This document shows, piece by piece, positions 12,124 through 43,820 of a stretch of 43,820 nt of DNA. Numbering within the stretch: position 1 is the first letter of the stretch; every line of letters begins with the position of its first letter. Source of the stretch: an uncultured bacterium (GTDB lineage: Bacteria; Bacillota_I; Bacilli_A; RFN20; CAG-826). The stretch lies in the NCBI GenBank assembly GCA_949299335.1, contig CASGAD010000005.1, positions 1-43,820 on the forward strand, written 5' to 3'. The translations under genes were made by a program, and so were the position numbers. The notes under the pieces were generated by a model. That model saw only the letters and a program-made list of their open reading frames with translations. It was not told where the DNA came from and did no database searches.

Positions 12124-12296
12124 TACACCGATAGCGCCTCTAGAAAATTTTCTAGGAGTCTATAAGGATGTTCTCCCATAGCCCAATCAACATTAACGCC
12201 TTAATGTTGTTTCGGCGACCATACCTTTCACTTATTTCACAGGATGCCTCCTTCATAAGTTACTCTTTTAGGCCGCGCCTCTATCAATCTTCGTAA
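12124..12296 (-). ncRNA. Lysine riboswitch (L-box)
   Basis: Read on the - strand this has the conserved parts of the lysine aptamer in order: GAAGAT..GATAGAGGCGCGG near the 5' end, AGAGTAAC, GTCGCCGAA, a CAACATTAA/TTAATGTTG hairpin, GGGCTATGGGAGAACATCC, the CTAGAAAATTTTCTAG hairpin, and the closing GGCGCTATC. The 5' GATAG pairs with the 3' CTATC to close P1. A consensus promoter starts transcription at its first bases and a terminator hairpin follows before the importer genes. Known L-boxes turn off lysine biosynthesis and transport when lysine binds; here termination would shut the importer down. Confidence 0.92.
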
Positions 12297-41415: not shown

Positions 41416-43674
41416 CTATAAAGGTAAATCTTTTTTCTTAAAAATAATAAATGAAGAAATATATGTAATTAACGCAATTAAAACCAGGCCAATTAGCTTG
41501 TAGTAGAAAATAACATTGCCATCCATTACTGCTTGTACATCGAATAATCTAATAATTGTAAAATAATTAAAGAAATTCATTGAATCAATTCTTAAAGCTA
41601 AAGGCATGGCATCAAGTCCAAATAAACCTAGTATTGAAGAAACTAAGAAGAAAATGCTTAATCCACCACCAACTCCAATTGAGTATTTTGTTTTGTTAAA
41701 TATCGTGCTTGCTAAGAAACAAATTCCACTAATTGCAACAGTAACTAAGTAAGCTCCTAAAGTATATAAGCATAAATCCATTATTGAAAAACTGGATACA
41801 AAGTCATCCCCACCACAAGCTATTGAAATTTCACGAGCGCATAATCCGAATAAAAACAAAATTACAAACATTAATGTTATAGCTAAAAGCTGATAAATAG
41901 CTTTAGTCATAATTATCGTAGTGCGTTTAATTGGACTTGATAAAGTAAATGCTAATGACCCATTTTCAACTTCTGTGCAAACTAAAGAATTACTAGTTAA
42001 AATAGTATAAACAATTGGTAAAAGCAAACCAGCCATTGAAAAGAACATGCCACCTATCACAAGACCATATAAATTCCTTGATGATAGATCATAGAGTTTA
42101 ACATATATATCTTCAGGTAGCTGGTCAGTTAAAGTATCACTAGCTTTGACTAAAGAAACTAATAAAGATGTCCTTTCATCATACTCTTTCTCTAAACAAG
42201 CCTTATATTCAACTTTATAAACGCTAATAGATGAAATTGCATAATCGTTTACTTTACCAAGTAATTCATTTCCATCTAAGCCATATTTATCTTTAGTTAA
42301 ATCACTTATACTTTCTAAATCGAACATATTTTTAATTAATGGCTCAGCATATGTTTTCAAATCTTCACCAACTTTGGAAACAAGGGCTTCTTCATTGACA
42401 GCTTTCGATTCTTCATCATAATAAACGGATGTATTTTTAACATAATCTATTAAAAAATCATAAACAAAATCATGACCTAAATTATAAAATTCTTTAGAAT
42501 CAGCTTTAGCTTCATTTAATTCTTTTTCCGTATATGCGCTACCAGTTAATATCTCTTTATATTGTTTTTCTAAAATATTAGCTTTTTTACCCATTCCGTC
42601 TTTAACTTTAACTAATTTGTCTCTATCTTTAATATCTTCAATTAATACTTCTTCATTATTGGAATCTAAATAATATGGTATACCTCTTTCATTAGTTAAA
42701 TATTCAACCGTAAAAGTTGGCAACGCTTCTAAATAATAATTATCTTCAAAAACAGTCCCCATAATTGAAGAAAGTACCTCAATATATAATTTGTCTTTAT
42801 ATCCAATATCACCTTCAATTATTTCGTTATTCGTATAAGCATCTTTATTGTTAATATAGCCATCAAGCAAAATTTCTGTAGGAACATCAATTGTAAAATA
42901 AGATATTTGTTCTTTTGCGATTTCATCAATAATTGAATCTATAGTGACTCTAGCTCTTTCATCGAACTTAGTTTCATCAGTTTCAAGTAAGATATCATCT
43001 ACACCACTTAATACAATATTAATTTCACTCTCATCTAAAGCAACATTTTCAGATAAATATGTTTTTATAGTTTCTTTAATAGAAGATTTTACTAAATCAG
43101 AATTACTACCTGATTTATTTGCACTATAAGAGTCTAAAAAATCATCTATAAAAACAGGCAAAATTTCACTTTGAGAGCTATCTAAATTGAATAATGGCAA
43201 AAATATTTCTATTAAACCTATAGTTCCTTCTTTAGCATAAACATGTTTTTCTTCTTCAGTTGTTCCAGTATTTAAAGATGAATTATATAAACCATCATAA
43301 GTTGTTTTGATTAAGTTTAAAGCTGTGTCATATTCACCATTATTTAATTTCATTACGGTTATAAAGTTATCATATAATAACGGGACACTATCTCCTAAAG
43401 TTGGCATAACCTCGTTATAGGCTATAATCCCTTCGTCATACGATAAATATAAAGAAACAGCCCCTTCTTTAATCTGCCTTTCCATACTTGCATTATTAAA
43501 TAAATTAGTCATAGATTGTCTTGTAACATTAATTGTTAAACTAGATAAAATTAATATGACAACAAAAAGCAATAATGCATTTCCAAAAGCTACAATTAAA
43601 AAACTTAAATAATTACTTTTTAATGAAACCCAAAATAATGATAGATTAAAAAACGATTTACCTTTATTTTTCAT
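41416..43674 (-). CDS. ABC-2 type transporter permease with large extracytoplasmic domain
   Basis: This 752-residue membrane protein has one helix at about 19-45 ([25 protein letters not shown]), an outside domain of about 480 residues that is charged, helical and unlike known domains, and six helices at the end (from about 530). Those include the ABC-2 style segment [39 protein letters not shown]. This layout (helix, big loop, helical bundle) is seen in ABC exporters of lantibiotic/multidrug type and in YhgE-like proteins. No ATPase gene is in the window; in many operons it lies upstream, here beyond 43820. There is no clear ribosome-binding site before the ATG at 43674, only a strong predicted RNA pseudoknot. 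The next gene is mgsA. Confidence 0.8.
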
Positions 43675-43680
43675 TTTCGT

Positions 43681-43816
43681 TACGTATTATCTAATCGTAC
43701 CCGGATTTAGAGATTAGATAACTTTTCCTTTCCCCGGGTATAATCTAACTATGCTGTGTACCTGTATTTTCATATTTACAGTTCGACTGTTTCGAGGTAA
43801 TTCAGGCCACAGTTTT
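43681..43816 (-). ncRNA. Structured leader RNA with predicted pseudoknot, class unknown
   Basis: Read on the - strand, an outer stem (CTGTG..CCTG with CAGG..CACAG, about 43753-43813) encloses a CAGT-CGA-ACTG hairpin. Next come TACCCGG, then TTATCTAATC pairing with GATTAGATAA (10 bp), and the loop of that hairpin holds CCGGGTA, which pairs with TACCCGG (7 bp). This is an H-type pseudoknot ending about 10 nt before the permease start. On the + strand the outer stem is followed by T6 and could instead end an RNA running rightwards. I cannot match it to a known riboswitch. It runs close to the window edge, so it may be incomplete. Confidence 0.5.
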
Positions 43817-43820
43817 TTAA

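Follow-up and report, generated by a model that had tools for sequence, protein, structure and literature searches.

H-type pseudoknots lie near the start codon in translation-controlling riboswitches of the preQ1 type, with the Shine-Dalgarno sequence (SD) inside the element. In the mRNA leaders of T4 gene 38 and gene 25, structure between the SD and the AUG shortens the spacing from 22 to 5 and from 27 to 11 nt, respectively (PMC3014915). In the bridge RNA of IS110 insertion sequences (IS), the left guide equals the top strand of the left target and the right guide equals the reverse complement of the right target's top strand (PMC11208160, PMC11208158). IS900, an IS110-family member of Mycobacterium avium subsp. 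paratuberculosis, inserts at CATGNNNNNNTCTCCTT, that is, between a start codon and the complement of an SD (PMC8141618). Here we describe a structured region at the right edge of a contig from an uncultured bacterium of the CAG-826 lineage (Bacillota_I; Bacilli_A; RFN20; assembly GCA_949299335.1, contig CASGAD010000005.1, here C5); the window that was analysed is this entire contig of 43,820 nt. It is quite likely that this region forms the left end of an insertion sequence from the IS110 family, directed by its guides into the spacer between SD and ATG, and that its other strand, the mRNA strand of the invaded gene, supplies a pseudoknot leader with a new SD that would keep the gene translatable and would later be retained.

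Left and right ends at Shine-Dalgarno sequences and start codons

Within the last 141 nt of C5, 136 nt are found again, without a single change, where contigs C26 and C27 begin. All three copies lie close to start codons, at a distance of a few nt, and the genes concerned are unrelated; named from reading their translations, they encode an ABC permease (41416-43674 of the window, minus strand, with its ATG at 43672-43674), a Wzz-like protein and an ArsR-like protein. Such sharing of contig ends looks like the pattern left by a collapsed multicopy repeat, and many contig ends in this assembly overlap by about 141 nt. Several further repeat families also terminate many of its contigs, again with overlaps of about 141 nt, which suggests that the genome holds more multicopy elements.

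The nature of the repeat is indicated by full copies in genomes of the same bacterial family. These carry IS110 transposases with the domains PF01548 and PF02371 (DEDD); the left-end region lies directly upstream of the transposase gene (tnp), on the tnp strand and thus opposite to the strand of the invaded gene, while the right end abuts an SD. By this comparison the window region reads as an IS110-family left end (43683-43820, + strand, running past the contig edge; tnp is on the + strand in the relatives' full copies) from an element that is multicopy in its own genome. For a repeat located at ATGs, IS200/IS605 ends, integron attC sites and DNA-inversion promoters had also come into question; they were dropped once IS110 transposases and the right ends had come to light.

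The right ends in the own genome were recognised by reading all contig ends; a search with a guessed right-end tip, GAGGTAATTTAACTATTA, returned interior chance matches only. Three of them stand directly after an SD (GAGGTA), on C31 (ATAGAGGTA), C34 (TAGGAGGTA) and C35 (AAGGAGGTA), and each then continues with ATTAACTATTAG. The flank on C34 carries the ArsR promoter and is syntenic with genome G014. When the flanks of C34 and C26 are rejoined, the result, GGAGGTAATTATG, has the same length as the empty site in G014, GGAGGCAATTATG, and the core dinucleotide is therefore TA. It is found at 43681-43682 at the left junction in the window and also at right junctions (GGAGG-TA-ATTAACTATTAG on C34); in sister copies L069-L071 the core is CT. 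The ArsR and Wzz orthologues have a plain SD-N(4-7)-ATG with no insert (in G014, the Wzz orthologue reads GAGGTTTATATG), and for the permease, the G014 orthologue shows an uninterrupted GGAGAT-AAAA-ATG. The insertion lies between the SD and the start codon, in a fixed orientation, and the complement of the start codon, CAT, falls within the left target.

These findings bear on the sequence-only reading, in which the structure was a riboswitch belonging to the permease gene. A pseudoknot near a start codon that has no match in Rfam would fit such a stand-alone riboswitch, and the structure does end a few nt from start codons, that of the permease as well as those of the other copies. However, the identical sequence precedes the Wzz and ArsR genes of this bacterium, the permease orthologue lacks the element, and the right ends mark it as the end of something mobile. 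The permease riboswitch was rejected on these grounds and is hardly credible; what survives of the original idea is a role of the minus-strand pseudoknot in translation, now as a leader that belongs to the insertion sequence, brings an SD and occurs by itself as well.

Two further arrangements were seen among related elements. At L054/L075 (G067:C42) the left-end tip is duplicated in tandem, 22 bp, beside a start codon. In a second IS110 clade from the same bacterial family (L090-L093, L095-L098), the right end lies directly on the start codon, in the orientation of the gene (GATAATAGTTGTATG), some copies have a -10-like box on the other side, and the right guide, CATAC or CATGC, matches ATG; this clade may target leaderless promoters.

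A predicted pseudoknot leader on the mRNA strand

The two stems of the structure are present in the window exactly as first described from the sequence. The arms of the 10-bp hairpin S1 are TTATCTAATC (43687-43696) and GATTAGATAA (43712-43721). S2 forms between TACCCGG in the loop (43698-43704) and the complementary outer strand CCGGGTA (43734-43740). On the + strand, S1 would be the 5' stem-loop of a bridge RNA; on the minus strand, it is the hairpin between SD and ATG. Folding of the 151-nt region beats that of shuffled sequences on both strands (z -3.0 and -2.8). In relatives, 97% of the S1 cells are paired and 9 of its 10 pairs are changed on both sides (0/500 shuffles), while S2 occurs as 14 distinct strand pairs, which form 5.86 of 6 pairs with their own partner vs 3.39 with others (0/20000). 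Because both S1 and S2 covary, chance is excluded as the source of the structure. Rfam covariance models gave no match on either strand, whether at the gathering threshold or with E values allowed up to 1, in keeping with the earlier suggestion of an unlisted RNA.

On the mRNA strand, the left end is predicted to form an H-type pseudoknot with an SD-like sequence of its own, AAAGGA (43726-43731, minus strand), in the loop that joins S2 to S1. The sequence-only reading had seen no ribosome site here; the motif is separated from the start codon by the hairpin. AAAGGA or AAAGGAG is the commonest motif between S1 and S2, being present in most copies, and it is not base-paired in either stem. A covariance model of the terminal unit gave about 93 matches in 45 of the 224 genomes of the family, and a broader model gave none in the searched genomes of the order's other families. 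A start codon that opens at least 40 codons follows 5-11 nt downstream in 83 of the 90 units inspected vs 214 of 3600 random positions. With S1 folded, the effective distance from SD to start codon has a median of 12.5 nt vs 49 nt when it is counted along the linear sequence.

These features suggest how an invaded gene might survive the insertion. The element cuts the target gene off from its own SD; on the mRNA strand the left end would then fold into the pseudoknot, with AAAGGA just upstream of S1, and folding of S1 would reduce the distance between this IS-borne SD and the start codon from about 49 to about 12 nt. With an SD at that distance, the gene could still be translated, and a gene without an SD of its own would need the leader, which could thus be retained.

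An SD in the loop of a pseudoknot also occurs in translation-controlling pseudoknots, and the structure is strongly conserved, so that an off-switch might be considered, in which the SD is buried in the pseudoknot and the target gene stays silent until a signal opens the structure. This is unlikely. AAAGGA is unpaired in both S1 and S2, a silencing insert is not expected to persist before so many genes, and a common ligand is improbable because the downstream genes (lipoproteins and FTHFS-, PlsX-, MscL- and deaminase-like proteins; names given by eye) share no pathway.

The leader is also found by itself. About 26 units, not all of them independent, have no transposase nearby and nevertheless keep the pseudoknot, the SD and the hairpin before start codons of unrelated genes, which, from translations read by eye, include lipoprotein genes and genes for FTHFS-, PlsX-, MscL-, cytidine deaminase- and DJ-1-like proteins. 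Six species of one genus (g26) carry the leader before lipoprotein genes; there the upstream sequence is similar, and the stems have changed yet are still paired.

It might be argued that S1 and the pseudoknot serve the insertion sequence only, as the 5' stem-loop of the bridge RNA or for recombinase binding, that copies without tnp are debris, and that the SD-like loop is a coincidence in a pyrimidine-rich loop. The 5' stem-loops of bridge RNAs are conserved in structure and variable in sequence (PMC11208158), the TCCTTT loop is conserved in full copies as well, and debris is expected from multicopy elements. Debris, however, should lose its structure and its strand preference, whereas the solo copies keep S1, S2 and AAAGGA(G). 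Their G.U wobbles (26 copies) number 19 on the mRNA strand and 0 on the opposite strand, a count tempered by a search model built on the mRNA strand, which may bias it, and by hand curation of the stems, in which three C.A pairs (trimmed ends or an imperfect stem) were omitted; the share of S2, 10:0, comes from a stem that the model did not score. Orthologous leaders persist, moreover, in the six species of g26. The predicted circle junction of right end and left end adds another point: it would create a promoter, TTGATT-N17-TATTAT, whose -10-like TATTAT is at 43685-43690 (+ strand), and transcription from it would be expected to start inside S1. Because of this expected start, S1 arm 1 may be outside the bridge RNA. 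A purely IS-related function is, on balance, doubtful.

A host 5' leader family might also have come first, with IS110 capturing a leader as its left end. The S1/S2 sequences of solo leaders vary more than those of IS-borne ones, and some solo leaders are vertically inherited, both of which speak for this order of events. However, full IS110 copies have the S1-S2-SD layout in clades whose transposases are 40-50% identical, which would need repeated or very old capture, and partial remnants at every stage of decay (L039-L041, L047-L049, L052, L053) favour a path from insertion sequence to leader. Capture seems quite improbable. In the preferred order, from insertion sequence to leader, we infer that the leader restores translation initiation after insertion, outlives the rest of the element in relatives and persists, selected on the mRNA strand, as the 5' leader of unrelated genes. 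For the full proposal, that an insertion sequence targeting start regions carries an SD-bearing pseudoknot leader that restores the invaded gene, and that bacteria have domesticated this leader as a 5' leader family, the grounds for belief and for doubt are about equal.

Guides of the putative bridge RNA

The + strand, which had been put forward as an alternative RNA, reads as an IS110 bridge RNA, with a 5' stem-loop followed by a target-binding loop that holds a left and a right guide. The further multi-part stem noted at the outset is real and corresponds to this target-binding loop (43754-43812; closing stem CTGTG..CCTG / CAGG..CACAG). It is present in the minimum free energy fold of the window, has a like architecture in full copies and follows the published model (PMC11208160, PMC11208158); a donor loop was assigned by eye, in relatives only. 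The left guide, TATTTTCATATTT (43765-43777), contains CAT, the complement of the start codon, and the right guide, TTCGAGGTAATT, lies at 43791-43802. A run of six T (43813-43818) follows the loop; in relatives, the donor-binding loop and the transposase come after it. This position is T-rich in all clades and might terminate an RNA consisting of the target loop only; in the IS621 complex, the target and donor loops come from two RNA molecules.

The right guide was read from the window, as CGAGGTAATT, before any right end in the own genome was known, and the flanks on C31, C34 and C35 then agreed with it: GAGGTAATT is identical to the SD-side junctions of all three. Across the elements, a right guide agrees better with its own flank than with the flanks of other copies (overall, 0/20000 permutations). 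A natural retarget is seen in L077 (G059:C164), where the right guide, TTGTCAATT, and the left guide, TTCACATC, each equal the corresponding flanks, which are not SD sequences. Because the right guide equals the SD-side flank and the left guide contains the ATG complement, translation initiation regions are most likely the sites to which the bridge RNA directs insertion. No paper linking bridge RNA guides to start-codon targeting was found, in a literature coverage that is incomplete.

Several observations weigh against this account of the element and its leader. When the right-guide test compares members of one clade only and uses only bases that lie wholly beyond the element's ends, 128/20000 (w6), 675/20000 (suffix 7) and 3110/20000 (w7) permutations do as well, so that the within-clade signal is moderate. 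For the left guide, 48 to 599 of 20000 permutations match the flank as well, counts that are not corrected for relatedness; this match is weaker than that of the right guide, and in fixed register the left guide fits C5 poorly. L077 and L084 are not at good SDs. In the own genome, besides the three left ends (C5, C26, C27) and the three right ends at SDs, there is a fourth right end, at the start of C33 (L161), that has no SD; its flank is ATACGTA, and CGTATT resembles the left-end tip. C5 was paired with C35 by elimination only. PF01548 was not found in the own assembly, from which the transposase and the right half of the element are missing; the interior is collapsed in the assembly, and because of its absence the family assignment of the window copy rests on the ends and on relatives. 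Finally, about 12 nt is rather long for the spacing of SD and start codon.

If the account is true, RNA-guided insertion would be tied to a benign niche: the guide would aim at the short motif that is best conserved in front of genes, and the damage would be mended by the element's other strand, which would explain how an SD-targeting insertion sequence can spread without killing genes. The natural guide-target pairs, including the L077 retarget, should be useful for bridge-RNA work, and the leader would be a class absent from Rfam. Elsewhere in the window, a lysine riboswitch (RF00168, 88.5 bits) is found at 12124-12291 on the minus strand.

Comparison with known systems

With IS621 and other IS110 elements (PMC11208160, PMC11208158), the element shares the DEDD transposase family (here in relatives), a non-coding RNA region in the left end (here putative), the 5' stem-loop, the target loop with a following region that resembles the right-end tip, and a promoter at the junction of right end and left end (here predicted). 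It differs in that its targets are SD-ATG spacers and its core is TA (CT in L069-L071). In contrast to IS621, the loop of its 5' stem-loop is tied into a pseudoknot, a word absent from both PMC11208160 and PMC11208158.

The preQ1-type riboswitches likewise have an H-type pseudoknot near the start codon with an SD inside, whereas here the SD is unpaired, the downstream genes share no pathway, the element is the end of an insertion sequence, and no Rfam match is found. As in the T4 gene 38 and gene 25 leaders, structure between SD and start codon would cut the spacing, here from about 49 to about 12 nt; unlike in T4, the hairpin belongs to a pseudoknot, is itself mobile and stands before many genes.

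IS900 shares the targeting of SD-ATG sites. The likeness is one of insertion site, guide-target pairing having been compared for the element described here and its relatives, and the opposite strands differ: that of IS900 is described with an open reading frame, hed, that lacks its own start and ribosome-binding site, whereas here the opposite strand is a pseudoknot leader with an SD. Taken together, the element belongs to an already known kind, an IS110 insertion sequence with IS900-like targeting, to which it adds a putative SD-carrying antisense leader and the apparent domestication of that leader.
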